DNA from: a virus
DNA: 55,498 nucleotides
Virus record (IMG/VR): IMGVR_UViG_3300042946_000772
Span: 1-55,498 of that record
Reading direction: 5' to 3' (one strand)
The notes under the pieces were generated by a model. That model saw nothing but the letters and a program-made list of their open reading frames with translations. It was not told where the DNA came from and did not search any database. Below are positions 29,406 to 40,852 of this stretch, piece by piece. Position 1 is the stretch's first letter; each line of letters opens with the position of its first letter. Both the position numbers and the translations under genes were made by a program.

Positions 29406-30095
29406 CTAGCTCTTCTTCGGCGGAGTGTCCTTGCACGGGTATTGACTCATGAACTGACGGAACGGAGCCATGATCCAATTCTCATGCTGCCATGAAGACC
29501 ACCCGCCGTAGTGGCTGGCGTTGAGCGATCCATCGGGATTGAGTCCCCACGGCACCCAATACTTGCCCTTGTTCGTCATGTGCTTGTAGACGATGCGCGA
29601 CTGAGTGTATGGGTCGAGCATTGCACCGCGCGACCACCAGTGCTTACCGGAGTGCGCGGAAGTTTGTATCTGCCAGATACCAAGGGCGCCTGAGTACCAG
29701 GGCGAACTCTCGTCCAGGTTTTGTCCCTTGGACTCGCGCATGGTGATTGCCCATGCCATTTGGTGCGAGTAGCCGGTGAATCCTGCCGCGTAGAGCGTCT
29801 TCGCGAGCTGGTTCTTGCATTTCCACACCGGCTTTGGGTTTAGTGGCTTTGGGTCTGGTTTTGGCTTGTCAGCCTGCGTCGTTGAGTCGGTTGCGCTATT
29901 ATCGAACCGTGCAGGCGTAGCTGTCGTTGTCGTCTGTGCGACGGATTTCGCGATTGGTGCGCGTGTCGCTGCGGATGCGTTGCTGCTGTGCGAGTAATAG
30001 GAGGTTACTGAGAAGATTGTCGCCGCAATGATTGCTGCGATGCTGAACGCTAGCAGTAGCGTTCGGCTCTGTCTATTGCTATCAGTGTTCTTCAT
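29406..30095 (-). CDS. Membrane-anchored lytic transglycosylase-like protein
   Basis: I choose ATG 30095 (229 aa). Residues 10-35 are a single membrane segment or uncut signal ('TLLLAFSIAAIIAATIFSV'). A Thr/Ala/Pro-rich linker follows. Residues about 110-229 have the SLT/lysozyme-like pattern: 'AWAITMRESKGQNLDESSPWYSGALGIWQIQ', in which the Glu of RESKG would be catalytic, then 'AMLDPYTQSRIVYKHM'. It would cut glycan strands of peptidoglycan from outside the membrane. It could serve in entry or lysis together with the amidase at 50.1-51.0 kb. Confidence 0.75.
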   Translation of the reverse strand: MKNTDSNRQSRTLLLAFSIAAIIAATIFSVTSYYSHSSNASAATRAPIAKSVAQTTTTATPARFDNSATDSTTQADKPKPDPKPLNPKPVWKCKNQLAKTLYAAGFTGYSHQMAWAITMRESKGQNLDESSPWYSGALGIWQIQTSAHSGKHWWSRGAMLDPYTQSRIVYKHMTNKGKYWVPWGLNPDGSLNASHYGGWSSWQHENWIMAPFRQFMSQYPCKDTPPKKS

Positions 30096-30190
30096 AAGTA
30101 TCCGATCTCTCGGGGACAGGGACAACGCCCGCGACGTGCACGGGCGCTCGCGCCTTCAGCGTTTAAGCTTGTTCATATGCGAAGGCGAGC

Positions 30191-30568
30191 TCAGACGGCC
30201 GTCTTGTTGTGACGGCGTGGTGGGCGTGCGTCGATGTCTTCGACGCTATGCATGATTGACCAGACTTGGTGAAGTGGAAGTTCGAAGTCGTCACCGCGTG
30301 TGTGGTGTACTCGGCTCTTGAAGTTGTCGTAGTCGATTTCGTACGTCTGATCGACGAGCCACCGCGCGAACTGCGAGCGGTCGATTTCAAGTCGGTAAGG
30401 GTAGTCCGCTCGGGGCGTGTGATGGATTTCGTTTGGCAGGTCTGGCGAACCGCAGTAGCCAATGAGTGAGTCGAGCGACTGCCTGTCGCGCGCACGCACG
30501 AGTATGACACCGATCTTGTCTCGGTGCGCTACCGCGCTAATGAATCCGTCTTGTGTGAATAGCCACAT
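30191..30568 (-). CDS. Conserved actinophage protein of unknown function (125 aa)
   Basis: The ATG at 30568 follows GAGAAGGAGAACAGC. The protein begins 'MWLFTQDGFISAV', contains 'ADYPYRLEIDRSQFARWL' and 'YEIDYDNFKSRV', and ends with a His/Arg-rich tail. I recognise this as a small family widespread in actinobacterial phages with no known role. No catalytic motif is evident. Confidence 0.7.
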   Translation of the reverse strand: MWLFTQDGFISAVAHRDKIGVILVRARDRQSLDSLIGYCGSPDLPNEIHHTPRADYPYRLEIDRSQFARWLVDQTYEIDYDNFKSRVHHTRGDDFELPLHQVWSIMHSVEDIDARPPRRHNKTAV

Positions 30569-30622
30569 AAGCTGTTCTCCTTCTCTCTGTCGTTGCGTCC
30601 TTGCGTTGACGACTAGCTGTTG

Positions 30623-30814
30623 CTAGTCTCCGAGCTTTTCTTGAATCTCTTCTGCGCTTACTTCGGTGACCTCGACGGCGCAGCCTTCCTGCTCGTACAT
30701 TCGCTTGACTCCGTGCTTCTCGTCTGCGCGAACGTACGTGACGAATGTGATGTCATCGCCTCGGTCTTGTGGCTTGGTGATGGTGAGCTTGTAGCCAGCT
30801 GCGTTCTCGTTCAT
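30623..30814 (-). CDS. Small acidic protein (63 aa)
   Basis: The ATG at 30814 lies behind AAGGAGGTGACATGAA. The product has a central segment 'DDITFVTYVRADEKHGVKRMYEQ' and an acidic C-terminal helix. A variant -10 (TACGAT, 30839-30844) lies just upstream. Function unknown. Confidence 0.65.
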   Translation of the reverse strand: MNENAAGYKLTITKPQDRGDDITFVTYVRADEKHGVKRMYEQEGCAVEVTEVSAEEIQEKLGD

Positions 30815-30856
30815 TTCATGTCACCTCCTTGGTGAAGTATCGTATCGCTAACGACT

Positions 30857-30892
30857 GTGCCCCACCCTGGTTTGGGTGGGGGCAGTCAGCGA
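30857..30892 (-). terminator. Terminator hairpin after the DUF6011-like gene
   Basis: CCCCACCC and GGGTGGGG pair around TGGTTT, and the stem extends with GACTG/CAGTC. It lies just after the stop at 30896 and just before the next gene's promoter. Confidence 0.65.
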
Positions 30893-30895
30893 GTT

Positions 30896-31471
30896 TTAGA
30901 GCCCGAATACCTTTCGGCAGTCGGGGCCGAGCTGGAACTTGCGGCTCACGGGATCGGTGAGCTCGGCGCCACACTTACCGCAGCAGCTGTAGTGCAGCCC
31001 GAAGAGCTTCGCGTATTTGTACGGGTCGCGCTCGAGGAGCTCAACGATGGCGAGCGTGTCCTTGTGCGTGAGCTTGTGCCGCGTGAATGAACCGACGCTG
31101 CCGGTGAGGCGGCGCATGTAGAGCGTGCGCATGTACTCGCGGACCTCGATGAAGAGCAGGTCGCCGTGAATGCTGGGCGCTGCCTCGAGCTCGAGGAACT
31201 CAAGCTCCTCGACGGGGATGGCGTACTTGCTCTTGGGGATACCCGCAAGAGCTGATTGCGTGGGTGAGGGTGAGCTGGTTGACGTGTACTTGGGCGCGGC
31301 CGGCAGTGTCTTGAGGTGGTCGATTGTGCGGCTGGCGGCTGCCTTGTCCATGAGGGGCAGGCTGTCGCGAATGATGGATGCCGCGACCTCGTCGACCGCG
31401 CGGAGCTCGAGCAGGTTGCGAATGTACGCGACCTGTGCGCCGGTGGCGGGTACGATTGTGGCTGTTGTCAT
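30896..31471 (-). CDS. Zinc-finger protein with DUF6011-like C-terminus (191 aa)
   Basis: The ATG at 31471 is preferred over an in-frame GTG three codons upstream, because that GTG is too close to the ribosome site. The N-terminal 60 residues are helical ('QVAYIRNLLELRAVDE'). The last 35 residues hold 'SCCGKCGAELTDP' followed by 'LGPDCRKVFG', the C-x2-C ... G-P-x-C pattern of DUF6011-type zinc fingers. Members are common in actinophages and probably bind nucleic acid or protein. Confidence 0.7.
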   Translation of the reverse strand: MTTATIVPATGAQVAYIRNLLELRAVDEVAASIIRDSLPLMDKAAASRTIDHLKTLPAAPKYTSTSSPSPTQSALAGIPKSKYAIPVEELEFLELEAAPSIHGDLLFIEVREYMRTLYMRRLTGSVGSFTRHKLTHKDTLAIVELLERDPYKYAKLFGLHYSCCGKCGAELTDPVSRKFQLGPDCRKVFGL

Positions 31472-31511
31472 CGTGTGCACCGTCCTTTCGTCGTCGTCGT
31501 CGTTGTAGTAC

Positions 31512-31523
31512 TATTATATCAGG
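31512..31523 (-). promoter_or_regulatory. Array promoter, copy 1
   Basis: CCTGATATAATA on the minus strand: extended -10 TGATATAAT. Drives the gene ending at 30896. The leader ACAACGACGACGACGAAAGGA follows. Confidence 0.75.
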
Positions 31524-31535
31524 TGCCCCTATAAA

Positions 31536-31582
31536 CGAGCAACCCTCCCGAGGGCATGTCACTCGGGAGGGCCAGTGCTCGT
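31536..31582 (-). terminator. Hairpin between adjacent array genes
   Basis: CCCTCCCGAG and CTCGGGAGGG form a perfect 10-bp stem with an outer CGAGCA/TGCTCG. It lies after the stop at 31588 and directly before promoter copy 1. A TTTAT follows on the minus strand. Confidence 0.75.
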
Positions 31583-31587
31583 GAAGT

Positions 31588-31833
31588 TTAGAGGCTGTTG
31601 ACGACGCACTCGATGGGCTCGGCGATGATGAGCTCCTGCGTCTCAGAGTTGAAGAGGCGGACCTCCTCGAGCTTGGCGCCTGCCGCGAAGGCAGAGGTCA
31701 CGAAGTCGGCAACCTTGCCGTCGCCCAGGGTAGTGACGAACTCACCGGCCCAGATCATTCCGGTGTCTGACGTGATGAGTGAAAGCCCGTCGACCCAACG
31801 GCCGGCGATGTTTTCGGTGATGAGAGTTGCCAT
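31588..31833 (-). CDS. Unknown array protein (81 aa)
   Basis: The ATG at 31833 follows GACGAAGGGACACCGAAC. The product is a beta-rich acidic protein ('GRWVDGLSLITSDTGMIWAGEFVTTLGDGK'). It may be a small OB- or SH3-like fold. It is transcribed alone from the promoter at 31879. Function unknown. Confidence 0.7.
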   Translation of the reverse strand: MATLITENIAGRWVDGLSLITSDTGMIWAGEFVTTLGDGKVADFVTSAFAAGAKLEEVRLFNSETQELIIAEPIECVVNSL

Positions 31834-31878
31834 GTTCGGTGTCCCTTCGTCATTGGCCAGGCTCCCTGGCGATGGTAC

Positions 31879-31890
31879 TATTATATCAGG
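31879..31890 (-). promoter_or_regulatory. Array promoter, copy 2
   Basis: CCTGATATAATA on the minus strand, 46 bases before the ATG of the 81-aa gene. Confidence 0.75.
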
Positions 31891-31895
31891 TAGAG

Positions 31896-32090
31896 CTAGT
31901 CGACGCGAGTGGCAATCGCGACGGTGGTCTTGGTCCAGGTGCCGCCCTGCGCCTCGACCGCGCGAATGATGTTGAGCTCGGTGGTTATCGGGTCGGGCAT
32001 GTCGGGCCAGAGAACGGTGACGCCGCTTTCGATGCCGGCGGCATCAGGGACCTGCCACTCAATGGCGGGCATCGTGGTGGTTGTGGACAA
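31896..32090 (-). CDS. Unknown array protein (64 aa, TTG start)
   Basis: I choose TTG 32090 because GAAAGGA lies eight bases before it, while the later in-frame ATG has no ribosome site. The product has a Thr-rich start and a beta-rich body ('TELNIIRAVEAQGGTWTKTTVAIATRV'). It is probably read from the promoter at 32284 together with the 45-aa gene upstream. Function unknown. Confidence 0.6.
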   Translation of the reverse strand: MSTTTTMPAIEWQVPDAAGIESGVTVLWPDMPDPITTELNIIRAVEAQGGTWTKTTVAIATRVD

Positions 32091-32112
32091 GGCGGTAGTC
32101 CTTTCGTCTCGT

Positions 32113-32250
32113 CTAGCGAAAGATCTGGTGGCTGGCGCAGAACCGGCCAGAGAATCGGTAGTGCTTGCAACCTTCGTAGTCGCACTGACCCTTGAAGGCG
32201 ACCTGGCCGTAGTGAAGTGTCCGGCCTTGGCGATCGATCCTGCTGTCCAT
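32113..32250 (-). CDS. Zinc-finger-like microprotein (45 aa)
   Basis: The ATG at 32250 follows GGAGGACAAC. The C-terminal half is 'CDYEGCKHYRFSGRFCASHQ', a C-x4-C...C-x2-H set that could hold one zinc ion. The N-terminal half is basic with 'RQGRTLHYGQVAF'. It is the first gene behind promoter copy 3. Too small for confident family assignment. Confidence 0.6.
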   Translation of the reverse strand: MDSRIDRQGRTLHYGQVAFKGQCDYEGCKHYRFSGRFCASHQIFR

Positions 32251-32283
32251 GTTGTCCTCCAGTCCTTGGCGTCCTTGTAGAAC

Positions 32284-32295
32284 TATTATATCAGG
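32284..32295 (-). promoter_or_regulatory. Array promoter, copy 3 (carries a stop codon)
   Basis: CCTGATATAATA on the minus strand. The TGA inside it is the stop codon of the upstream 48-aa gene. Confidence 0.75.
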
Positions 32296-32437
32296 CAGGC
32301 GGCTTGAGCTGGCCTTGAACCAGCTTGAGCTGATCGATGACCAGCCCGCATGGACAATGAACCTTCAGAAAGCCGCCCGAGAAGGCATGGAGACGCCTAC
32401 ATGACGGGCAGTGGTAGAATCCACGGATAGTCGTCAT
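32291..32437 (-). CDS. Zinc-ribbon microprotein (48 aa)
   Basis: The ATG at 32437 starts a protein with 'FYHCPSCRRLHAFSGGF' and 'VHCPCG', a C-x2-C ... C-x-C zinc ribbon. The C-terminus is amphipathic. The stop lies in the next promoter. It follows the WGR-domain gene by 20 bases, so both share promoter copy 4. Confidence 0.65.
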   Translation of the reverse strand: MTTIRGFYHCPSCRRLHAFSGGFLKVHCPCGLVIDQLKLVQGQLKPPA

Positions 32438-32457
32438 GTAGGCGCTCCATTCCCTTC

Positions 32458-32700
32458 TCAGACCGCGTACGCCAGCTCGTATCCCTTGGCGAGCTTCTCG
32501 TAGCGCTTGTTGAACGCGAACTGCCGCGCCGCGGACTCGGTGGCGAAGTACTGCGAGGAGTGCTGGCGCCGGGTCTTCTCGGCCATTCCCCACGAGGTCC
32601 GCACGATCGACCCGTCGATCACGATCTCGTACACCTTCTTCTTGCCATTGGCTCCGCGAGTCCCATCGGACTCCTTCAGCAGGCACCACTTCGAGTTCAT
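32458..32700 (-). CDS. WGR-domain-like protein (80 aa)
   Basis: The ATG at 32700 follows CGGAGGACAA. Residues 20-75 fit a WGR domain: 'KKKVYEIVIDGSIVRTSWGMAEKTRRQ' with WGM in place of WGR, then 'YFATESAARQFAFNKRYEKLAKGYELA'. WGR domains occur in PARPs and in bacterial MolR-type proteins and bind nucleic-acid ends. Here the domain stands alone. A phage protein that binds DNA ends or modulates a host WGR protein is possible. Confidence 0.6.
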   Translation of the reverse strand: MNSKWCLLKESDGTRGANGKKKVYEIVIDGSIVRTSWGMAEKTRRQHSSQYFATESAARQFAFNKRYEKLAKGYELAYAV

Positions 32701-32753
32701 TTGTCCTCCGTCGTTTCGTCGTTTTCGCCGGTTCGTCGTTCCGGCGTTGGTAC

Positions 32754-32765
32754 TATTATATCAGG
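32754..32765 (-). promoter_or_regulatory. Array promoter, copy 4
   Basis: CCTGATATAATA on the minus strand, upstream of the WGR-domain gene. The leader contains AACGACGAA twice. Confidence 0.75.
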
Positions 32766-32784
32766 TACTCGAGTTCAGGGGTAA

Positions 32785-32817
32785 ACAAAAACGCCGCCCA
32801 TCTTTCGATGGACGGCG
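32785..32817 (-). terminator. Rho-independent terminator on the minus strand
   Basis: CGCCGTCCATC and GATGGGCGGCG (minus strand) pair around GAAA and are followed by TTTTTGTTT. It ends the small membrane-protein gene at 32838. Confidence 0.85.
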
Positions 32818-32837
32818 CTCTTGTGGGCTAGATGAAG

Positions 32838-32999
32838 CTAGTCCTCGCGAAGTGAAAGAACCGCGACCGTGACGCTCGCGATCAGCAGACCAAGAGCTCC
32901 GATCTCTCTCGAGGTCTGGCTAAGCGCGAGGAGGATCAACCCAACCGAGCCAAGCCCGGCGGCGATGATCGGGAAGATAGCGACGCGACGACGCTTCAC
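32838..32999 (-). CDS. Small membrane protein (53 aa)
   Basis: The GTG at 32999 lies four bases after the stop of the HTH gene. After a basic start (KRRRVAI) there are two hydrophobic stretches (residues 7-26 and 33-50) joined by a short polar turn, so it is a two-pass membrane protein or hairpin. It could be a holin-like or immunity-type peptide. Nothing in the sequence decides between these. Confidence 0.65.
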   Translation of the reverse strand: MKRRRVAIFPIIAAGLGSVGLILLALSQTSREIGALGLLIASVTVAVLSLRED

Positions 33000-33002
33000 G
33001 TC

Positions 33003-33347
33003 TTAGCTTACCTCACCGGTTGCCGGCTTACGCGTACGCCCCTTGAGTCGTGAGCTTGCGTCACGAATCGGCGTGCCGGAATCGACAATGAGCTTGCGCG
33101 CCTTGCCGTACGTGATGCCGAGCTCGGATGCGACCTCGACGACTGACTTGCCTGCTGTGTAGAGCGAGGCTGCCTGAGTTGCACTAGCTGCGCTAGTGGG
33201 GTTGGTTGTGTCCATTACGGTTTTCTCCTTGGAGTGTCGTTCTGTTGTTTGTTGTGGTTCAGCTGCGAGTTCTTCTCGAGCTCGAGAAGTTAACCGCGCA
33301 GCTTCGGCAAGGAGATCTCTGCCTGCCGAAGTTTGGTTGTCGATCAT
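33003..33347 (-). CDS. HTH regulator (114 aa), paralogue of the plus-strand HTH protein
   Basis: The ATG at 33347 follows GACGAGGTGAC. A second in-frame ATG at 33215 has its own GGAG and could give a short form. The HTH is at residues 60-95 ('AASLYTAGKSVVEVASELGITYGKARKLIVDSGTPIRD'). It aligns with the protein at 40512-40811. A basic tail (KGRTRKPA) follows. It is likely a regulator of the array or of the phage cycle. Confidence 0.7.
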   Translation of the reverse strand: MIDNQTSAGRDLLAEAARLTSRAREELAAEPQQTTERHSKEKTVMDTTNPTSAASATQAASLYTAGKSVVEVASELGITYGKARKLIVDSGTPIRDASSRLKGRTRKPATGEVS

Positions 33348-33416
33348 GTCACCTCGTCGTTTCGTGCCGTACGGGATCTACAGTACTACAGGTTGAGTAG
33401 AAAGTACATTGGAAGT

Positions 33417-33707
33417 TTAGATGACTAGAATCATCGCAGGGAGATCTCCGTACTGGGCTTGCTCCTTGGCGTATGTCAAGTATGCGTCGATGACGTCGGG
33501 GAAGGTGTTGAACACTTCGCTCCACTCGTCAATCGCGTCCCATCGGCTGCCGCAGCACGGGCAGTCTCGTTCGGAGTCGAAGTAGACTCCGATCTTCTCT
33601 GCCTTGTTGTTTGCTTCATCGGCACTCTGGGATTCGACGACTACGACGATCGCAGGGGTGGTGAAGCTACCTCCGCTATTGTTTTGGCTGAAGACGTAGA
33701 ACGCCAC
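33417..33707 (-). CDS. CPCC-motif phage protein (96 aa)
   Basis: The GTG at 33707 lies nine bases from the stop of the gene before it. The protein has 'FYVFSQNNSGGSF', a segment of five Val or Ile, then 'CPCCGSRWDAIDEW', a half zinc knuckle. The C-terminal part has 'AYLTYAKEQAQYG'. I recognise this as a small family common in phages. Its role is unknown. Confidence 0.7.
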   Translation of the reverse strand: MAFYVFSQNNSGGSFTTPAIVVVVESQSADEANNKAEKIGVYFDSERDCPCCGSRWDAIDEWSEVFNTFPDVIDAYLTYAKEQAQYGDLPAMILVI

Positions 33708-33715
33708 TGGCTAGC

Positions 33716-33886
33716 TCACCTCGTCTCTGGGATCATTGGCTGAACCGCGCACGGCTCGATTGAACCTCCGCGCCAGTCGCAGGCGATGTTCTTTCCCCAG
33801 ACAAGAGAATTGACGCCAATGGCTGTGGCGATGATCGCGATGGCAAGAACGATCTTGCCGCGTCGTGTGAGTCGAACGTCGTTCAT
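33716..33886 (-). CDS. Small single-pass membrane protein (56 aa)
   Basis: The ATG at 33886 is preferred because CCAAGGAGGCAAAG precedes it and the promoter at 33916 lies just upstream. Residues 12-30 are a membrane segment ('KIVLAIAIIATAIGVNSLVW'). The rest is polar with two Cys that could form a disulfide outside. Function unknown. Confidence 0.65.
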   Translation of the reverse strand: MNDVRLTRRGKIVLAIAIIATAIGVNSLVWGKNIACDWRGGSIEPCAVQPMIPETR

Positions 33887-33915
33887 CTTTGCCTCCTTGG
33901 TCGGTGCCGTAGATC

Positions 33916-33927
33916 TATTATATCGGG
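33916..33927 (-). promoter_or_regulatory. Array promoter variant
   Basis: CCCGATATAATA on the minus strand: one base off the array consensus, so the TG of the extended -10 is lost. The TAA inside it ends the upstream HTH gene. Confidence 0.6.
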
Positions 33928-34502
33928 TAGATCCGACTTTTGGCCGCATTACGCCACGCTGAATCTTCGATAAGCTTTAGATCCGGCTGAGCAAGCTCGG
34001 AGTCAAGGTCTCCCTGCCTCCACGCCCACCCGGGAACGTATCCGAGCTCGCGAGAGAGCTTTATGACCCTTTCAGCCTGCCAACCAGTCCGCGGAGTCAT
34101 TCTTAGCTCATCATAGACTCGAGCTACCGCGCTCGCTGTGCTTGCGTACACCTTTCGACGCATGTTGACCGGTCGAAGCGTTGACTTTGACAGTCCCGCA
34201 CGATCGGCAATCTCACCGCGGGTCCAGCCAAGCAGAGCTAGAGCTTCAATTCTCCTTCGCGTTCCGGCTCCAGAAACCATTCGCCTGCTTGCAGGCAACA
34301 ACGGCAGCGACATGAGCCTCGAGGCTGTTCGACGATACACAACGCGCTCGGGTGGAGCACTAAGGACGTATCGAACCGTGCGTTCGCTGATTCCCGTCCG
34401 CGCCTCGACGTCCTTGTAGCTAGCTCCCTGCCTCATCACTGCTCGAAGATGATTCGCTACTATCTTCGCCGGCAGCCCTCTCGGCTTGGTCGTTGTTGTC
34501 AC
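33918..34502 (-). CDS. HTH DNA-binding protein (194 aa)
   Basis: The GTG at 34502 lies inside the preceding gene. There are two HTH-like parts: residues 12-45 ('VANHLRAVMRQGASYKDVEARTGISERTVRYVL') and 85-112 ('ALALLGWTRGEIADRAGLSKSTL'). The rest is basic and helical. It looks like a resolvase- or sigma-type tandem HTH regulator. The stop codon lies inside the next promoter. Confidence 0.7.
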   Translation of the reverse strand: MTTTTKPRGLPAKIVANHLRAVMRQGASYKDVEARTGISERTVRYVLSAPPERVVYRRTASRLMSLPLLPASRRMVSGAGTRRRIEALALLGWTRGEIADRAGLSKSTLRPVNMRRKVYASTASAVARVYDELRMTPRTGWQAERVIKLSRELGYVPGWAWRQGDLDSELAQPDLKLIEDSAWRNAAKSRIYPI

Positions 34503-34716
34503 TAGTCTCTACCTTCGCTACAGTGCTCCAGTGTTCATCCGCGCATGGGCAGCCGCAGATCCATAGATTCTCGTACCAGGCTACTTCTCTCTTACACTTC
34601 GCGTGTTCCTCTGAATCTTGTTCTTCGCCCATGCACCACCCGCAGCGCGCGCGAAGTCGAATTGGCGTTCGCGGGCCGTCGTAGTCTTTATGCGCTTCGA
34701 GCTTCTTCTTGCTCAC
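34420..34716 (-). CDS. Cys-rich acidic protein (98 aa)
   Basis: The GTG at 34716 overlaps the previous gene by 29 bases. Residues 20-65 contain 'CGWCMGEEQ', 'KCKREVAWYENLWICGCPCADEHW', about six Cys and one His, enough for two metal sites or one ribbon. The C-terminal 30 residues are Ser/Glu-rich and disordered. It sits in a run of four overlapping genes, so expression is coupled. Confidence 0.65.
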   Translation of the reverse strand: MSKKKLEAHKDYDGPRTPIRLRARCGWCMGEEQDSEEHAKCKREVAWYENLWICGCPCADEHWSTVAKVETSDNNDQAERAAGEDSSESSSSSDEAGS

Positions 34717-34912
34717 AGCGGGATTCTCCGTTTCGCGGCTCGTCGTCGAGAATGTGTTCTGAGCAGTAAGCGAGCTTGCCTTCTGAGATGAAGTCCGCAA
34801 GCAGCGGGCAGCTCGGTACAGCGCAAAACGGCCTGCCGCAGGTATAGCAGACGACGTTGCCTTCGTCCGTCACGTCGAGTTCGAAGTGAAAGCATACGTC
34901 GCCGACCCTCAC
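34688..34912 (-). CDS. Zinc-binding protein (74 aa)
   Basis: The GTG at 34912 overlaps the upstream stop (GTGA). The protein has 'CFHFEL', 'VVCYTCGRPFC' and 'CPLLADF', a likely zinc ribbon or knuckle, and an acidic tail. It is one of several Cys-rich small proteins in this array. Confidence 0.65.
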   Translation of the reverse strand: MRVGDVCFHFELDVTDEGNVVCYTCGRPFCAVPSCPLLADFISEGKLAYCSEHILDDEPRNGESRCEQEEARSA

Positions 34913-35079
34913 GCGGTTGCCTTGGTCGTTCGAGCTTCACGCTCGCCAACCGGCACCACCTCATGTGTCGTTACGTCTTTTTTCGTCTTTTGAAGCCAGT
35001 CCCGCGCGAGCTCGTCGCTCATGAACATGCCAAGCCATTCGCCTGTCGGCGCGAATACGTTGACGTACGGGTAGTTCAT
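34909..35079 (-). CDS. Unknown array protein (56 aa)
   Basis: The ATG at 35079 follows GAAAGGAGGTACGCA, an excellent ribosome site. The product begins 'MNYPYVNVFAPTGEWLGMFMSDELARDW', which looks like a small alpha/beta fold, and ends in a basic tail. Function unknown. Confidence 0.65.
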   Translation of the reverse strand: MNYPYVNVFAPTGEWLGMFMSDELARDWLQKTKKDVTTHEVVPVGEREARTTKATA

Positions 35080-35105
35080 TGCGTACCTCCTTTCGTCTCT
35101 AGCGC

Positions 35106-35117
35106 TATTATATCAAG
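35106..35117 (-). promoter_or_regulatory. Array promoter variant
   Basis: CTTGATATAATA on the minus strand, with the extended -10 intact. It drives the overlapping four-gene run 35079 to 33918. Confidence 0.7.
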
Positions 35118-35120
35118 TAC

Positions 35121-35690
35121 TTAGGAATACTGTACCGCGATCGCGTATGGCGGGCCTGTTCCGTTGTCGAGCTTGCCGGCAACTCCAAGCGCATACTTTA
35201 CCGCGGCCTTGGCGTGTTCAACGTCTCGGGCGTCGATTGGGTCTTCGACCAGTGCGTGTAGCGCACCGAGCGCGTAGTCACCGCCGGACCCCGCGGCATA
35301 CAGGCCGAGCGAGTCCCGCATGTAGCTGTAATCCTCGCCGAGTTCGTAGATAACTCCGCTGACGCAGACAAAGATTGTTGAGCTGTGCGAGTGGTCCTTG
35401 CCGTATCCGGCTGACTCAAAGCACTCTTTTAGCTCAGGGAGAAACACTGTTGACATGAAGCGATCGAGCTTGCGCCCGGTTTTATCACTCGGGCTGGGAG
35501 GATCGAATACATGCTCGAGAATGTTTACCGCGCGAAGATCTCCTGCCGCGCTCATGAAGTACGGGCCTCGACGAAGAAGCTTTGATTGATTGGCCGGTAA
35601 CGTGAATACTCGACCGCGGTCTTCTACCACGCGAGAGTCGACGCCAAACACGGCCCAACCGTGCCCTTGAACAGCCGCCATCGTCGTCAT
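35121..35690 (-). CDS. Proteasome beta / HslV-like Ntn peptidase
   Basis: This 189-aa protein begins MTTMAAVQGHGWAVFGVDSR. Removal of Met (or Met-Thr) would expose an N-terminal Thr, the nucleophile of proteasome and HslV peptidases. The Asp in 'GVDSR' and the Lys in 'QSKLLRRG' are at the spacing of D17 and K33. Further on, 'YAAGSGGDYALGALHALVEDPIDARDVEHAKAAVKYALGVAG' closely follows the HslV pattern (GSGGxYAxxAAxALxE). It would be a compartment peptidase, perhaps with a phage or host unfoldase. The start codon is very close to a -10 box, so translation may be leaderless. Confidence 0.7.
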   Translation of the reverse strand: MTTMAAVQGHGWAVFGVDSRVVEDRGRVFTLPANQSKLLRRGPYFMSAAGDLRAVNILEHVFDPPSPSDKTGRKLDRFMSTVFLPELKECFESAGYGKDHSHSSTIFVCVSGVIYELGEDYSYMRDSLGLYAAGSGGDYALGALHALVEDPIDARDVEHAKAAVKYALGVAGKLDNGTGPPYAIAVQYS

Positions 35691-35697
35691 GGGAGCT

Positions 35698-35703
35698 ATT
35701 CTA
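35698..35703 (-). promoter_or_regulatory. -10 box of the HslV-like gene (leaderless type)
   Basis: TAGAAT on the minus strand within GATAGAATAG, one base from the array core GATATAATAG. Seven bases separate it from the ATG and no ribosome site lies between. Confidence 0.5.
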
Positions 35704-35717
35704 TCTGAGAGGTAGAA

Positions 35718-36302
35718 CTAGACCTCTTCAAGAAGTTCCCGTATCGCCGAATAGAGCTCGGGGTGATTGCTGACATACCGTGTCCAAACGGCACCGACTA
35801 CGCCCACGCGGGTAAGCTTGTATAGGTCATCGAGATCTGCCCCTGCTTGAGTCACGTCAATGGTCATTCCCGGGCGGTAGATGCAGATCTCGTCGTTCTG
35901 GTAGATCCACCCGTATCCATTGGTTCGGCTCAAGATGTCCGCGGCCCAGCTCATGGTGACGGCGCCCAGTACACTTGGTTTTGGCATCGGTAGCACGCTC
36001 GAGTAGTCATCGGCGTAGAAAGATGAAAGAAGCGACTCGGCTGCATGAGCTGATCTAAGCTTTCGAACGTCGGCTACGGTTTCGCGCTTGACGGTGGCGT
36101 CCCACTCGTCCCACTCATACTTGAATCGCTCTGTGATGTCGCTGTGGGTTTTCGTGCGAATCTCGACCGTAGCGCCTATGCGATTGAAGATGTACAGGTA
36201 GTGCGCCGAGTATGGCTTGAGTTCGACGTACTGAAGCGCGTAGGAGTATCGCCCGCCTAATCGAGACTTTGCTGGCGTGCTCGGGTGAATAGCTGCAGTC
36301 AT
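35718..36302 (-). CDS. Unknown protein (194 aa)
   Basis: The ATG at 36302 lies just after the stop of the 63-aa HTH gene. It is a mixed alpha/beta protein. It contains 'YSYALQYVELKPYSAHYLYIFN' and 'YKYEWDEWDATVKRE'-like aromatic segments, and ends in an acidic helix. No catalytic motif is seen. Its neighbour downstream is the HslV-like peptidase, so it could be a substrate adaptor, but that is only inferred from proximity. Confidence 0.65.
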   Translation of the reverse strand: MTAAIHPSTPAKSRLGGRYSYALQYVELKPYSAHYLYIFNRIGATVEIRTKTHSDITERFKYEWDEWDATVKRETVADVRKLRSAHAAESLLSSFYADDYSSVLPMPKPSVLGAVTMSWAADILSRTNGYGWIYQNDEICIYRPGMTIDVTQAGADLDDLYKLTRVGVVGAVWTRYVSNHPELYSAIRELLEEV

Positions 36303-36304
36303 GA

Positions 36305-36496
36305 CTACTCGCCTTTCTCCAGCTCGCGGACGGCGGCCATGATGCGTTCGAGGTCGCGCATGGTGATCTTGGTGAAGTCGTTGCAGAACTTCATAACCGT
36401 GCGACGCGGCACGCCTGCCTTGTCCGCGACACGATCGACGCCGTGCGTCTTCTTGATTGTGTAGCCGACGTCCTGCATGCGATCTTTGTTCATCAT
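36305..36496 (-). CDS. Small HTH protein (63 aa)
   Basis: The ATG at 36496 follows AAGGGGGAACTGAC. Residues 15-40 form an HTH: 'KTHGVDRVADKAGVPRRTVMKFCNDFTKIT'. The rest is a helix for dimer contact. It is a likely transcriptional regulator of Cro/C1 type. Its ribosome site is inside the end of the upstream gene. Confidence 0.7.
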   Translation of the reverse strand: MMNKDRMQDVGYTIKKTHGVDRVADKAGVPRRTVMKFCNDFTKITMRDLERIMAAVRELEKGE

Positions 36497-36497
36497 G

Positions 36498-36656
36498 TCA
36501 GTTCCCCCTTGAGTCAGCTATAGCTGCGCGTCGCTTGTCTCCACGGGAGCGGCGTCGCTTGGTTGTGCGGTGCTGGTACTTGGTGATGACGCGGTTGATC
36601 ACGCTGATCCCGCGCGACGCCGGAGTTACGAGCGCCGGCTTCTTTGTCTTCGCCAT
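36498..36656 (-). CDS. Basic microprotein (52 aa)
   Basis: The ATG at 36656 follows GAAGGAGACCACA. About a third of the residues are Lys or Arg ('KYQHRTTKRRRSRGDKRR'), so the peptide probably binds nucleic acid. The stop precedes the HTH gene's ATG by only one base. It shares promoter copy 5 with the HTH gene. Confidence 0.55.
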   Translation of the reverse strand: MAKTKKPALVTPASRGISVINRVITKYQHRTTKRRRSRGDKRRAAIADSRGN

Positions 36657-36684
36657 TGTGGTCTCCTTCCCTCGGCGTTAGTAC

Positions 36685-36696
36685 TATTATATCAGG
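36685..36696 (-). promoter_or_regulatory. Array promoter, copy 5
   Basis: CCTGATATAATA on the minus strand, upstream of the basic microprotein, the HTH gene and the unknown gene. Confidence 0.75.
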
Positions 36697-36715
36697 CGAG
36701 GGCGGAGATTGAAGT

Positions 36716-36955
36716 TTAGTAGTAGTCTGGGTCCTGAAGTCGAAGCGCGGGGTAGTCTGAGTTCTCGCCAGGGCGAGGCGTTCGACCTGGCGCCGCGACG
36801 TCTCGCTGAATGAGCTGTGAGATGCGCTCAAGGCTTCGCCGCGCGACCTTTTCGCTCGAGTTTGACGCCGGGCGGGTTGGATCGAGCTCTGCGACGTCTC
36901 GAAGAGCTCGTAAAGCTTCCTCGAGCGCCGCGGAGATCTCTGCAGGGTTACTCAC
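36716..36955 (-). CDS. Helical array protein (79 aa)
   Basis: The GTG at 36955 overlaps the stop of the preceding gene. The first 55 residues are two helices of Ala, Leu, Glu and Arg ('SAALEEALRALRDVAEL', 'KVARRSLERISQLIQRDVA'). The end is Pro-rich. Function unknown. Confidence 0.6.
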   Translation of the reverse strand: MSNPAEISAALEEALRALRDVAELDPTRPASNSSEKVARRSLERISQLIQRDVAAPGRTPRPGENSDYPALRLQDPDYY

Positions 36956-37226
36956 TGGCTTCCTCCGACCAAAGTTCGTCGCGGAGATGAATCTCGTAGT
37001 AGTCGCCGCGCCAGGAGTTGTCGCCGAACTCGATGTTGGCGTCTTCCTGAAGCTGGGCGAGCGAGAGGACCGCGGTATGCCACTTGTCCTCGAACATGAT
37101 GACGAGCTTGACGTCGTCCTCGAGCGGGTCGGCGACAACCGCAACCTTGAACGGCGCGCCGCCAATGCCGTTTCGATGATAGGCGGACTTGAGAATCGAG
37201 AGCTGGTGATCGAATGTCTTTGGCAT
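36948..37226 (-). CDS. Unknown array protein (92 aa)
   Basis: I choose ATG 37226 because AAAGGGG lies eight bases before it; an earlier ATG at 37244 lacks a site. The protein has 'TFDHQLSILKSAYHRNGIGGAPFKVAVVAD' and 'VKLVIMFEDKWHTAVLSLAQL'. It could be a ligand-binding fold of phage regulators. It is acidic at the end. Confidence 0.65.
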   Translation of the reverse strand: MPKTFDHQLSILKSAYHRNGIGGAPFKVAVVADPLEDDVKLVIMFEDKWHTAVLSLAQLQEDANIEFGDNSWRGDYYEIHLRDELWSEEASE

Positions 37227-37258
37227 TCGGACTGCCCCTTTCATTTCGTCGTTGGCAC

Positions 37259-37270
37259 TATTATATCAGG
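37259..37270 (-). promoter_or_regulatory. Array promoter, copy 6
   Basis: CCTGATATAATA on the minus strand, followed by the leader CCAACGACGAAATGAAAGGGG. Confidence 0.75.
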
Positions 37271-37280
37271 TAAGTGCGAA

Positions 37281-37308
37281 GGCAGGGCAAGCTTTTGCTC
37301 ACCCTGCC
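37281..37308 (-). terminator. Terminator-type hairpin
   Basis: GGCAGGGCAAGC and GCTCACCCTGCC pair (two G-U) around TTTT. It lies after the stop at 37319 and before promoter copy 6. Confidence 0.65.
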
Positions 37309-37318
37309 CGCAACTTCT

Positions 37319-37597
37319 TTACGCTGCCTCGAGCTTGAGCTCGCCCTTCCGGATCTGCGACATCGTCTCGCTTGCGACCTTGCACGTCGTCGCAACCATG
37401 CTTGCACCGGTCGACGTGTTGAAGATCAGGTAGTGCGAGCAATCGTTGGCACGGAGGACCGCAAGGCTCGCGCGCTTGCGGAAGTAGGCAGGCGTATACC
37501 CGCTGGGCAGCTTCACGCCCTTGGCAACCACTCCCGGCTGCTCGACTCGCGTCCACGGCTTCCACCGCGGCTTCTTCTCGGCTACTGTCGTCGTCAT
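37319..37597 (-). CDS. Unknown basic array protein (92 aa)
   Basis: The ATG at 37597 follows GATGGGGTGAACAG. The protein has a Trp/Lys-rich start ('KKPRWKPWTRVEQPG'), then 'RANDCSHYLIFNTSTGASMVATTCKVASE' and a helical end. Function unknown. Confidence 0.6.
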   Translation of the reverse strand: MTTTVAEKKPRWKPWTRVEQPGVVAKGVKLPSGYTPAYFRKRASLAVLRANDCSHYLIFNTSTGASMVATTCKVASETMSQIRKGELKLEAA

Positions 37598-37651
37598 CTG
37601 TTCACCCCATCTCGTCTTCCGTCGTTTCCCGGCGTGCCGGGCTGTTAGTAC

Positions 37652-37663
37652 TATTATATCAGG
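37652..37663 (-). promoter_or_regulatory. Array promoter, copy 7
   Basis: CCTGATATAATA on the minus strand. A GGCACGCC palindrome and GGAAACGACGGAAG follow in the leader. Confidence 0.75.
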
Positions 37664-37674
37664 TACCGCGCGGG

Positions 37675-37842
37675 CTACCACTCCTGGCGAGCCAGGATCT
37701 CTCCTTCTGGAGACAGAAGTCGCTTGCGGTAGTCTCCGAAAGTATTCAGACTGCGGTAGTAGAAAGCTGCCTGTGCCGCAGTGTCGAGAGTGTAGCGTGT
37801 CGTCCACTTGCCGTGCGTCTTGCGCACCTGAACCTGGTACAC
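37675..37842 (-). CDS. Unknown array protein (55 aa)
   Basis: The GTG at 37842 follows GAAAGGACACCAAG at the usual distance. The product ('YQVQVRKTHGKWTTRYTLDTAAQAAFYYRSL') looks like a beta strand pair plus a helix and resembles short single-domain phage proteins that contain 'W..RYtldT..qA'. Function unknown. Confidence 0.6.
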   Translation of the reverse strand: MYQVQVRKTHGKWTTRYTLDTAAQAAFYYRSLNTFGDYRKRLLSPEGEILARQEW

Positions 37843-37874
37843 CTTGGTGTCCTTTCGTCGCTGGCTGATAGTGC

Positions 37875-37886
37875 TATTATATCAGG
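37875..37886 (-). promoter_or_regulatory. Array promoter, copy 8 (carries a stop codon)
   Basis: CCTGATATAATA on the minus strand. Its TGA is the stop of the 90-aa gene upstream. Confidence 0.75.
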
Positions 37887-38154
37887 CAGAGACTCCAGAA
37901 GGGGTCGCAGTCCAGAGAATCTCGCCGGTCGACGTATCGACGATGCCGAGGATCATGTTCCGAGTCCACAGCTCGTAGCGCTTGCCGAGCTCGGGATGAT
38001 TCTGCAACCACCAGTAAAGCTCGCCTGCCGTAAGACCAGGGTCAGCTAGGACGTGGTACTCGACCACATCGTTAGTGCGCGGATCGGCGCTGTACGTCGA
38101 TCGATCGCAGATGTAAAAGACGTAGTCGGTGAATAGAGCAGTGCCCGGTCTCAT
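37882..38154 (-). CDS. Unknown array protein with STGE-W ending (90 aa)
   Basis: The ATG at 38154 overlaps the stop of the 34-aa gene (ATGA). The protein contains 'YVFYICDRSTYSADPRTNDVVEYHV' and ends in 'GIVDTSTGEILWTATPSG'. The same ending pattern (D-x-STGE-x-x-W) is found in the protein at 41246, so the two may share a fold. Function unknown. Confidence 0.65.
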   Translation of the reverse strand: MRPGTALFTDYVFYICDRSTYSADPRTNDVVEYHVLADPGLTAGELYWWLQNHPELGKRYELWTRNMILGIVDTSTGEILWTATPSGVSA

Positions 38155-38255
38155 GCGCGACTCCTCTCGCTTCGAAAGTCTCTCGCGATCCGCCGCAGCC
38201 AGCGGCTGTACGACCAGACTACAAACAAGACCGGACTGCGCTCGTGAATCATCAT
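38151..38255 (-). CDS. Possible membrane microprotein (34 aa)
   Basis: The frame starts at ATG 38255, overlapping the stop of the upstream gene, and ends in ATGA overlap with the next gene. The coupling on both sides supports a real gene. Residues 7-18 are hydrophobic ('PVLFVVWSYS') and the rest is strongly basic. It could insert in the membrane or be only a coupling ORF. Confidence 0.45.
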   Translation of the reverse strand: MMIHERSPVLFVVWSYSRWLRRIARDFRSERSRA

Positions 38256-38590
38256 GCCGGGTCCACGATTGAGGTCGGCACGACGATCTCGGGTGAGACG
38301 CAGGCGCCGTCAGAGTTTATTCGAGAGAATCGGCCGATCGGCTTGTCGAGCATGACGACGATCTTGGTCCGGCGCAGGGCAACGACAGTGCCGACCGAGC
38401 CAATCAGGTACTTCGTGCCGCACAGGTTGTTGAATCGAATCTTCTGCCCGAGCCCAAAGTCGCTCTTTGAGCGAGTGGTCCGCAGCTCGACCTGGCGCTT
38501 TTTCACCGCAGCCTCGATGTCGGCGAGCTGCTTGTCGTACACGCCGGTTGAGATATCGATCACGATCTCTTCGAGTAGCAGCATGCTCAT
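38252..38590 (-). CDS. Unknown array protein with KOW-like strand region (112 aa)
   Basis: The ATG at 38590 overlaps the upstream stop (ATGA). The N-terminal 40 residues are helical ('DKQLADIEAAVKKRQVEL'). The C-terminal 60 have 'GLGQKIRFNNLCGTKYLIGSVGTVVALRRTKIVVMLD', a typical small beta barrel of the KOW/SH3 type. It may bind RNA or protein. Confidence 0.6.
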   Translation of the reverse strand: MSMLLLEEIVIDISTGVYDKQLADIEAAVKKRQVELRTTRSKSDFGLGQKIRFNNLCGTKYLIGSVGTVVALRRTKIVVMLDKPIGRFSRINSDGACVSPEIVVPTSIVDPA

Positions 38591-39033
38591 GTCTCCTCTC
38601 CGAATGAGTAGGTGAGACGTCCCTCGAGCACCTGCATGCGCGTGCCGTCGAACGAGTAGCGCCAGATGGCGTCATCCTCGCCGCGCCAATCGATCGCCGA
38701 ACCGGGTTCGACGAAGTGCGCGATGGTGGCGAGAAACAACTCTTCCTGCCCGGTCTTCGAGTCGTATCCAACGATCCGGGTGCCTTCGGGCTCGACCTTG
38801 GTCTCGAAGCCGAGCATCTCGAGAATCTCGGCTACGGACGTGACGGTCTTGTCGTAGTCAGACGGCATCCAGGAGAACCAGGACTCGGTCTTTCCGCCCT
38901 CCGCGTAGCGTCCGCCGCGCTTGAGGTGGTTGTTGTCGCTTGAGTTGAGCTTCTTGAGCGCGTCGAGGGCCGCGGACTCGTTGACGATCGGCAGAAGCCA
39001 GTTCGTCGACGTGATTGAAACGTAGTAGCCCAT
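38587..39033 (-). CDS. Conserved actinophage protein of unknown function (148 aa)
   Basis: The ATG at 39033 follows GAAAGGACACGAC. The protein has 'GYYVSITSTNWLLP', 'ESAALDALKKLN', 'SWFSWMPSDYDKTV' and 'GSAIDWRGEDDAIWRYSFDG', a pattern I recognise in actinobacterial phages and some host genomes. It is soluble and alpha/beta. Function unknown. Confidence 0.7.
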   Translation of the reverse strand: MGYYVSITSTNWLLPIVNESAALDALKKLNSSDNNHLKRGGRYAEGGKTESWFSWMPSDYDKTVTSVAEILEMLGFETKVEPEGTRIVGYDSKTGQEELFLATIAHFVEPGSAIDWRGEDDAIWRYSFDGTRMQVLEGRLTYSFGEET

Positions 39034-39070
39034 GTCGTGTCCTTTCGTCGTTGGGCCGTGCTGTTAGTAC

Positions 39071-39082
39071 TATTATATCAGG
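39071..39082 (-). promoter_or_regulatory. Array promoter, copy 9 (carries a stop codon)
   Basis: CCTGATATAATA on the minus strand. The TAA inside its -10 box is the stop of the upstream gene. Confidence 0.75.
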
Positions 39083-39366
39083 TGCCACTCGCACGTGGAG
39101 CCGGATCCAGCCGCATGGCGATCGCAGCTCGAGTACGCGCAAAAGCGTTCCTCGATGCGAAGAGGAGTCTCGAAGGTGACAGTCATCGACTCGGGCGCGC
39201 CCTTGACGTCGCCCGCATCCGCGAACTCGACGTAGACTTCGTTTGAGCTGACGCGGACAACGTTGGAGACGGTGACGAGGCACTCGTCGCCGGAAGCTGT
39301 TGGCAGGGCAACGGCGTCACCGACTCCGATGCTGAAAGCGTAGATGGGCCGGGCGATCACGGTCAT
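39073..39366 (-). CDS. Beta-rich protein with C-terminal Cys/His site (97 aa)
   Basis: The ATG at 39366 overlaps the stop of the previous gene. Strand-rich middle ('VTVSNVVRVSSNEVYVEFADAG') and a C-terminal 'CAYSSCDRHAAGSGSTCEWHL', a C-x4-C-x2-H...C-x2-H set able to bind zinc. Last gene of a three-gene run from promoter copy 10. Confidence 0.65.
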   Translation of the reverse strand: MTVIARPIYAFSIGVGDAVALPTASGDECLVTVSNVVRVSSNEVYVEFADAGDVKGAPESMTVTFETPLRIEERFCAYSSCDRHAAGSGSTCEWHLI

Positions 39367-39578
39367 GTAAGAATCTCCTGGTCCTTGATGGAAAAGACGG
39401 GCGCACCGGTCGTATCGAATACGCGAATGCGCCCATCGAACCATTCGCCTAGCGGATCTTGCTCGATCTTATCTCGCACCAGGTCGAGGGCGCGCGACTT
39501 GGCGTCCTCGAGCTGATCGGCTTCGAAGTAGATGACGAACGTCTTGCCGCGTCGGCGCGATGTGAGCCTGTAGATCAT
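39363..39578 (-). CDS. Small alpha/beta protein, tandem paralogue A (71 aa)
   Basis: The ATG at 39578 overlaps the stop of its neighbour by ATGA. The protein aligns over its length with the one encoded just upstream: start 'YRLTSRRRGKTFVIYFEADQLEDA', end 'GEWFDGRIRVFDTTGAPVFSIKD'. It looks like a product of tandem duplication. Function unknown. Confidence 0.65.
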   Translation of the reverse strand: MIYRLTSRRRGKTFVIYFEADQLEDAKSRALDLVRDKIEQDPLGEWFDGRIRVFDTTGAPVFSIKDQEILT

Positions 39579-39787
39579 GCCGGAGCCTTAGCGTTCATGG
39601 AGTGAATGATCTTGCCTTCACAGTCCTTGAGGACGATGCGTCCGAGCGCCCATGGACCGGTAGGGAAGCGCGCTGCGCGTTGAATGATGATGTCGACCGC
39701 GTCGAGAGTTGCCACCATCGAGTCGGCCGCGATGATGATAGCTTGGGACTTGCGGCGCCCGAGCTGGGCGGTGAGCTTATACCGCAT
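39575..39787 (-). CDS. Small alpha/beta protein, tandem paralogue B (70 aa)
   Basis: The ATG at 39787 follows CAGGAGGCATC. It aligns with paralogue A: start 'YKLTAQLGRRKSQAIIIAADSMVAT', end 'GPWALGRIVLKDCEGKIIHSMN'. Both share a strand-helix-strand layout. It is the first gene behind promoter copy 10. Confidence 0.65.
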   Translation of the reverse strand: MRYKLTAQLGRRKSQAIIIAADSMVATLDAVDIIIQRAARFPTGPWALGRIVLKDCEGKIIHSMNAKAPA

Positions 39788-39819
39788 GATGCCTCCTGTT
39801 GTCGTTCCGTCGTTGGTAC

Positions 39820-39831
39820 TATTATATCAGG
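39820..39831 (-). promoter_or_regulatory. Array promoter, copy 10
   Basis: CCTGATATAATA on the minus strand with the leader CCAACGACGGAACGAC. Confidence 0.75.
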
Positions 39832-39914
39832 ACGAGTATGACGTGCGGGTGGCGGTTGAGGTAGCTACTCTCCCTGTCGTGCGACCTGCCCTTACCGAAG
39901 AGATGACCCGTCAC
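39822..39914 (-). CDS. Possible 30-aa microprotein ending inside a promoter
   Basis: A GTG at 39914 opens a 30-codon frame whose TAA stop is the -10 of promoter copy 10. The peptide is basic with 'HPHVILVLI' at the end. There is no strong ribosome site, and a hairpin lies just upstream. Weak candidate, listed because the stop placement follows the pattern of its neighbours. Confidence 0.2.
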   Translation of the reverse strand: MTGHLFGKGRSHDRESSYLNRHPHVILVLI

Positions 39915-39921
39915 GCGACCC

Positions 39922-39962
39922 AGGCGCCCGACCTTCGATCCGACAAAGAAGGCCGAGCGCCT
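39922..39962 (-). terminator. Long hairpin after the 110-aa gene
   Basis: AGGCGCCCGACCTTC and GAAGGCCGAGCGCCT form a 15-bp stem (two G-U) with an 11-base loop. It begins 14 bases after the stop at 39976. No T-run follows. Confidence 0.6.
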
Positions 39963-39975
39963 GGACAGCTGCGTC

Positions 39976-40308
39976 CTACTTGGCGATGAGCACCGTGTAG
40001 GGCGACTCGTACAGCGAAGCCTGGTAGGCCTCGGGGAACGCGTTCTGAAGGACCTTGCGGTCGATGTTCGACCGGTTGCGCTGCGCGATGCGAACGCGCT
40101 CGACGCCAGCGATGATGCCGACCTCGGCATCACCGAGGAGCTCGCGGATGGCCGCCTCGGCGGTCTCCTTCTCGGCCTCGAGCACCTTCATGGCCGCCTT
40201 GGCCGCAGTGAACCGCGCGATAAGCTGCGCGGCATCGGTCGAATCGAGCTCGACGGTCGTCGTGCTGGTGACCACCTCGGTGGTCTTGGTAACTACGGTG
40301 CTAGTCAT
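39976..40308 (-). CDS. Coiled-coil array protein (110 aa)
   Basis: The ATG at 40308 follows GAAGGGAAGTAGTCG. A Thr/Val-rich start leads into a long helix ('RFTAAKAAMKVLEAEKETAEAAIRELL'). The C-terminus 'NRSNIDRKVLQNAFPEAYQASL' resembles segments found in phage recombination-associated proteins. This is not enough to claim a function. Confidence 0.65.
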   Translation of the reverse strand: MTSTVVTKTTEVVTSTTTVELDSTDAAQLIARFTAAKAAMKVLEAEKETAEAAIRELLGDAEVGIIAGVERVRIAQRNRSNIDRKVLQNAFPEAYQASLYESPYTVLIAK

Positions 40309-40359
40309 TCGACTACTTCCCTTCGTCTCTTGAGGTGCCCTTTGGCGCCTCGTTGGTGC

Positions 40360-40371
40360 TATTATATCAGG
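40360..40371 (-). promoter_or_regulatory. Array promoter, copy 11
   Basis: CCTGATATAATA on the minus strand. It directly abuts a hairpin at 40369-40398. Confidence 0.75.
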
Positions 40372-40398
40372 TGCCTCTGGCCGAAGGAAGAGGCACCT
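40369..40398. terminator. Hairpin abutting promoter copy 11
   Basis: AGGTGCCTCT and AGAGGCACCT form a perfect 10-bp stem with a 10-base loop. There is no leftward gene just upstream, so besides acting as an insulator it could be an operator for the divergent pair. Confidence 0.55.
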
Positions 40399-40456
40399 GC
40401 CCGGTTGTGACTAGTCAATGACCGCTCAATGGGTGTTTAGCTAGCGGGTCGACAGG

Positions 40457-40462
40457 TACAAT
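40457..40462 (+). promoter_or_regulatory. Plus-strand -10 of the HTH gene
   Basis: GGTACAATAG resembles GGTATAATAG of the other plus-strand promoters. The leader holds AATGACAAAACGACAAGGGAG. Confidence 0.5.
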
Positions 40463-40511
40463 AGAAACGTGCGGAACACCGCGCAATGACAAAACGACAA
40501 GGGAGAAGATA

Positions 40512-40811
40512 ATGGCGAACACTATTGAAAACGACATCACTCAGGCGATCTCGCTTCTAGCTGATGCCCTCGGCATCATCCGAGGAGCGCCAGAGGCGTC
40601 CGGCACCCAGGGGCGAGGGCGACCGCGCAAAAGCGGGGGCGAGCATGCCGCCGAGCTCTACAGTCGAGGGCTGTCCGTCAAGGAGGTCGCAGGGAAGCTC
40701 GGCGTGAGCTATCCGACAGCGCGTCGGATGATCACCGGTACCGGCACGAGCATCCGGTCAACCGAAGAGCGCGCCGCCGCGCGTCGCCGTGCGACACAGC
40801 ACGCGGCGTAG
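40512..40811 (+). CDS. HTH regulator on the plus strand (99 aa)
   Basis: The ATG at 40512 follows AAGGGAGAAGATA. The HTH is at residues 47-80 ('HAAELYSRGLSVKEVAGKLGVSYPTARRMITGTGTSIRSTEER'). It closely resembles the minus-strand regulator at 33003-33347. A Gly/Arg linker (GRGRPRKSGG), like an AT-hook, precedes the HTH, and the tail is Arg-rich. It probably acts as a repressor or activator of the array. Confidence 0.75.
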   Translation: MANTIENDITQAISLLADALGIIRGAPEASGTQGRGRPRKSGGEHAAELYSRGLSVKEVAGKLGVSYPTARRMITGTGTSIRSTEERAAARRRATQHAA

Positions 40812-40812
40812 A

Positions 40813-40849
40813 CGAAGAGCCCCGGCGGGGAGTTCCGCCGGGGCCTTCG
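40813..40849. terminator. Two-way terminator between converging genes
   Basis: CGAAG-a-GCCCCGGCGG and CCGCCGGGGC-CTTCG pair around GGAGTT. It lies between the stops of the plus-strand HTH gene and the leftward gene at 40853. Confidence 0.75.
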
Positions 40850-40852
40850 CGT

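Follow-up and report, generated by a model that had tools for sequence, protein, structure and literature searches.

Genomic context

The window analysed here is a stretch of 55,498 nucleotides from IMG/VR virus record IMGVR_UViG_3300042946_000772, and it carries on its minus strand a gene for a proteasome-like Ntn-hydrolase with the features listed in Table 1. The product of this reading frame (35690..35121) begins with MTTM, and the block GSGGxYAxGALHALxE (GSGGDYALGALHALVE) occupies residues 134-149 with the initiator Met counted, both as an earlier note on this DNA had read them; active-site residues are numbered below without this Met. Upstream of the ATG, nine in-frame codons lead back to a stop codon and none of them is a start codon, so the peptidase has no propeptide. 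Removal of the Met alone would expose Thr1, and the reading frame thus gives no sign of a Thr that stays covered, the outcome that the earlier note had named as speaking against its proposal.

Table 1. Coordinates of the peptidase gene, its predicted active-site residues and the neighbouring features in the window.
Feature	Position	Strand	Remarks
Proteasome-like Ntn-hydrolase gene (group I, HslV/BPH/AAH-type)	35121..35690	minus	189-aa ORF, ATG start, no propeptide
Predicted catalytic nucleophile Thr1 (Thr2 with Met)	35685..35687	minus	Thr 48/49, Ser 1/49 in alignment
Predicted catalytic Asp17 (D18 with Met)	35637..35639	minus	Asp 48/49, Glu 1/49
Predicted catalytic Lys36 (K37 with Met; equivalent to Lys33 of the proteasome and Lys37 of Td-BPH)	35580..35582	minus	Lys 49/49
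Predicted oxyanion-hole Gly49 (G50 with Met; equivalent to Gly47 of the proteasome and Gly50 of Td-BPH)	35541..35543	minus	Gly 48/49
Predicted active-site Ser134, GSGG motif (S135 with Met; equivalent to Ser139 of Td-BPH)	35286..35288	minus	Ser 33, Thr 15, Ala 1 of 49
194-aa ORF	35718..36302	minus	27 nt upstream of the peptidase; probably same operon
63-aa helix-turn-helix ORF	36305..36496	minus	Probable leading gene of the operon; its LacI-type HTH match is weak and falls below the curated cut-off
TGATATAATAG promoter-like element	36684..36694	minus	Upstream of the putative HTH / 194-aa / peptidase operon
TGATATAATAG promoter-like element	35105..35115	minus	Just past the stop codon of the peptidase gene, oriented towards the following gene

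The dN/dS ratio of the peptidase is 0.036 against a relative that is 94% identical and 0.14 against one that is 77% identical; the two relatives' genes have 85% and 74% DNA identity, with differences chiefly at third positions. These low ratios (about 0.04 and 0.14) mark the gene as real and maintained by purifying selection. A copy identical to the window's in DNA sequence is present on another contig (L062).

The portal protein of the window is 77% identical to that of Actinomycetia phage DSL-LC01 and 66% identical to that of Microbacterium phage Pumpernickel. The window also shares most of its gene order with DSL-LC01 (MoxR-like ATPase, CobT-like protein, peptidase, and portal included), whose genome was assembled from a metagenome and whose predicted host is an actinobacterium (PMC10611076). 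Both observations support the actinophage origin assumed in the earlier note. WhiB-family genes lie shortly 3' of the peptidase gene in 22 loci (two representatives Pfam-confirmed), which fits actinobacterial hosts. 20S proteasomes occur in this phylum. Nothing in the window matches the terminase large-subunit gene of DSL-LC01 (lowest E about 2), whose collinear place is 28347-32291; a lysozyme-like (SLT_3) ORF lies within that stretch. Like DSL-LC01 and Pumpernickel, the window has very large ORFs between the portal and major capsid genes (8316-22739); of these, one is 1569 aa long, and the other, of 2884 aa, has no Pfam or PHROG match.

The 194-aa ORF also has no match in Pfam or PHROG, and its homologue is located directly 5' of the peptidase in all four loci that carry it. 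Across the neighbourhoods examined there is no universal partner gene, and recurring neighbours are local only: a metallophosphoesterase directly 5' of the peptidase in 20 of the 31 loci of a distant subgroup, and an 80-aa protein 5' of it in 15 loci. In the distant subgroup (L103, L112, L119, L126 and others) the metallophosphoesterase is calcineurin-like, and the peptidase gene directly 3' of it lies between terminase and portal.

The sequence TGATATAATAG occurs 26 times in the window, versus 0.08 copies expected, and all copies fall within 28807-48603 (the 28-49 kb part) and none in the structural module; 25 are on the minus strand and one is on the plus strand, usually in front of a gene. 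The consensus of the element, CCTGATATAATAGtaC, is extended -10-like without a conserved -35, and a 'acgacgaaaggac' stretch often follows it ahead of start codons. The peptidase gene lies inside this promoter-rich region and outside the structural module, and since one such element stands 5' of its putative operon, it is apparently expressed with the non-structural genes. A short ORF (48123-48527) at the upstream end of this region has a helix-turn-helix of the LuxR/sigma-70 region 4 type and could encode a phage transcription factor.

Predicted fold and active site

A single-sequence Pfam scan of the peptidase gave no match even at E<=10, and the PHROG_1040 profile ('peptidase HslV family') matches it with E=1.7e-17. 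NCBIfam HslV models score 14.6-16 bits, far under their curated cut-offs (157.75 and 137), and among solved structures a sequence search puts BPH nearest (E about 0.01). An AlphaFold2 model built from 49 sequences from IMG/VR and GTDB loci has a mean pLDDT of 95.3 and a pTM of 0.89. Foldseek places BPH first among PDB structures (5OVS, 5OVT, 5OVU; PMC5777263; E=3e-12, TM up to 0.77), followed by HslV (E=7e-11) and then 20S beta, each with a probability of 1.00; phage HslV-like models align with a TM of about 0.9. The model has the two central beta sheets flanked by helix pairs that characterize the superfamily, a strand-helix order like that of proteasome beta, all four flanking helices, and a long helix H2 (residues 72-93); it is compact, lacks the C-terminal elements S12/H5, and ends in a strand at 183-188. 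The window peptidase is intact and belongs to group I of the proteasome-like Ntn-hydrolase superfamily. The HslV/proteasome-beta-type hydrolase that the earlier note had proposed is thus borne out by PHROG_1040 and by the Foldseek matches to BPH, HslV, and 20S beta, and the layered fold on which it had staked that proposal is the one predicted. Anbu and actinobacterial PrcB were also considered as identities and rejected, given the missing C-terminal helix H5 and the empty Pfam scan.

Equivalents of Thr/Ser1, Asp17, Lys33, and Gly47, the residues that mark membership of the superfamily, are all present, and the catalytic columns are conserved among 49 aligned sequences (alignment A3; counts in Table 1), in keeping with the intact active site claimed before. 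The catalytic spacing of 1/17/36/49/134 is close to the 1/17/37/50/139 of Td-BPH (PMC5777263), whereas the Lys is displaced by +3 residues relative to HslV and to proteasome Lys33; the 'proper spacing' of Asp and Lys in the earlier description therefore holds for BPH and fails for HslV and the proteasome. One viral homologue (L066, 6001-6567) has a natural Asp17 to Glu change (VTTIAAIQGEGWAVVGYESRV) with the rest of the site intact. By analogy, the layout would predict an active enzyme with peptidase activity. BPH has the same active site yet is inert on standard peptides and casein, and its Thr1 reacts with epoxomicin (PMC5777263); given this inertness in standard assays, catalysis by the window peptidase may need a cofactor.

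Relatives and class assignment

Relatives of the peptidase were found in 16 records of the phage collection, in at least 521 IMG/VR loci, and in 35 bacterial loci that include many BPH-like ones, with further rhizobial and Streptomyces plasmid homologues. They include the homologue of phage DSL-LC01 (46% identity, E=6e-51) and also occur in phages of the non-actinobacterial hosts Geobacillus, Vibrio, and Xanthomonas. With the PHROG_1040 match, the DSL-LC01 match, the viral loci, and the dN/dS ratios, the similarity of this ORF is not due to chance.

In a maximum-likelihood tree the window peptidase falls in a clade of 27 rows (support 96/96) that is virus-only and actinophage-dominated in this sampling, and whose outer members are the homologues of Microbacterium phage Pumpernickel (gene 135), Arthrobacter phage Hum25 (gene 81), and ct2KA10. 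The clade adjoins an AAH set (n=15, 100/98) from Rhizobiales, Streptomyces, Paraburkholderia, Myxococcota, and other phages, and BPH and HslV fall outside both. A sister relationship to AAH is moderately supported (88-90), in a tree that has several long branches and some forks under the star threshold and in which Rhizobiales and Streptomyces homologues stand in for the published AAH alignment. Profile scores of the window peptidase (AAH 74-84, BPH 51, and HslV 16 bits) agree with this placement.

In 2021 Fuchs, Alva, and Lupas described PPH and AAH, two proteasome-like homologues of group I that phages carry, and could find no Actinobacteria-specific phage encoding AAH (PMC8665760). Like AAH, which is the strongest profile match among AAH, BPH, and HslV, the window peptidase belongs to group I, lacks a propeptide, falls near 180-190 aa with relatives in phages and bacteria, and has four flanking helices; unlike the reported AAH, it comes from an actinophage. 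On the tree it is AAH-like, yet outside the AAH clade as sampled with the stand-in references, and was not assigned to AAH for that reason. BPH shares the Thr1/Asp17/Lys36-37/Gly49-50/Ser134-139 spacing, the absence of a propeptide, and the absence of a dedicated unfoldase, but is only 17-22% identical, forms a separate clade, and has a long acidic pore loop, whereas the window loop from helix 2 to the next strand (GYGKDHSHSS) is not acidic; membership of BPH was therefore rejected. HslV (ClpQ) is alike in fold, active site, and the GSGGxYAxxA motif, but its 16-bit score is under the cut-offs, the Lys is shifted by three, and no HslU partner is encoded in the window, which is a fragment, or in three complete relatives, so an HslV equivalog was also rejected. 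PPH is likewise a phage-borne group I member, but one of about 140 residues without helix H2, and the 189-residue window peptidase with its long H2 is excluded from it. Phages also carry CPH, a proteasome homolog of cyanobacteria. The family of PHROG_1040, which includes DSL-LC01 and Pumpernickel, is the same as that of the window peptidase, which differs from it only by divergence. Proteasome-family genes of phages were already known, and that of the window falls in a virus-only branch whose relatives number in the hundreds.

Proposed function

The reading we favour, at a probability of roughly 0.6, is a self-assembling, propeptide-free Thr peptidase of group I that works without a dedicated phage unfoldase and cleaves host or phage proteins. 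Profile search found no HslU/ClpX-type AAA+ (AAA_2, ClpB_D2-small) in the window, where the earlier note had also seen no HslU-like ATPase near the gene, or in the complete genomes of DSL-LC01, Pumpernickel, and Hum25, which argues for a free-standing peptidase. One related 216-kb phage contig does carry a ClpB/ClpX-type AAA+, and host unfoldases could serve the peptidase. Host methionine aminopeptidase would remove the start Met and expose Thr1, and the subunits would most likely form a homo-oligomeric ring with the active sites inside, by analogy with HslV and BPH. As no matching phage unfoldase is present, the substrates would probably be peptides and proteins that are unfolded, flexible, or small, or else specific proteins delivered to the ring, a mode proposed for BPH (PMC5777263). 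Expressed alongside regulatory and small non-structural genes, the peptidase would most likely cleave host (or phage) proteins during infection, presumably to the benefit of the phage.

More tentatively, the actinophage clade could be a distinct virus-only class, separate from AAH, BPH, HslV, and PPH, that acts as an unfoldase-free protease of host takeover or counter-defence or as a specific processing enzyme; we regard this as possible but doubtful.

A classical ATP-dependent degradation machine, in which the peptidase is served by an AAA+ unfoldase of the host or the phage, such as the MoxR/CobS-like ATPase at 44626-45768, is unlikely. HslU activates HslV, and the collinear DSL-LC01 has both a MoxR-like ATPase and the peptidase, but in the window 9 kb separate the ATPase from the peptidase, the ATPase is instead paired with a CobT-like gene (the pair being 77.9% and 52.8% identical to that of DSL-LC01), no AAA+ gene recurs beside the peptidase in the neighbourhoods examined, and none of the AAA models tried hits the complete Hum25 genome. 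The link to the phage MoxR ATPase suggested in the earlier note accordingly found no support.

Somewhat less likely still is a role as a head-maturation or scaffold protease, an idea that draws on the distant subgroup (L103, L112, L119), where the gene lies between terminase and portal and the genes beyond the portal resemble those for scaffold and capsid, without an evident protease in between. Separate 'capsid maturation protease' genes adjoin the major capsid gene in the collinear DSL-LC01, and the 1569-aa ORF corresponds to them next to the capsid gene of the window, which together make head maturation improbable for this peptidase. Its gene is also among non-structural genes in the window, Pumpernickel, Hum25, Geobacillus E3, Tunturi_5, XacN1, and SCTP-2.

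Some proteasome-like homologues have turned into specific monomeric ligases, and in connectase the fold does not necessarily come with protease activity or rings (PMC8665760). A specific processing enzyme or connectase-like ligase, rather than a degradative one, would suit the sporadic presence of the gene and the absence of an unfoldase; nevertheless, it is very unlikely here, as all four ring-contact flanking helices are predicted in the AlphaFold2 model, while connectase lacks H1/H2 and has a two-helix S3/S4 insertion that is absent from the model.

Least likely of all, the peptidase would mimic or poison the host 20S proteasome through mixed rings or capture of Mpa/ARC, for which its likely hosts, in a phylum with 20S proteasomes (PMC8665760), and its predicted resemblance to 20S beta subunits might speak, but it is a group I protein placed with AAH/BPH/HslV by profile and tree, its complete catalytic set is under purifying selection and would be needless in a pure decoy, relatives occur in Geobacillus, Vibrio, and Xanthomonas phages, whose hosts are outside the actinobacteria, and no Pup or ARC context was found. 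The earlier suggestion of a link to the host 20S core or Mpa/ARC is thus unsupported, the peptidase belonging to group I and not to PrcB. A search of the literature on phages and the proteasome or pupylation found nothing relevant.

Significance

The window peptidase is a real, well-conserved member of a known and functionally unexplored kind: among phage proteasome-like proteins, described in 2021, the literature search found none with a known function, phage HslV included. With this gene, the 2021 statement that no AAH-type actinophage could be found is updated, at least for the sister branch of AAH. Because the clade is common, with relatives encoded in the IMG/VR loci counted above, and its outer members are carried by cultured Microbacterium and Arthrobacter phages, it could be tested which proteins such a homologue degrades, by removing the gene in laboratory phages. 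Among the AAH genes themselves, that of Sinorhizobium americanum plasmid B (L143) is annotated as hypothetical and is located inside the nif region of the symbiotic plasmid (NifQ, sigma-54, NifS, and NifW).
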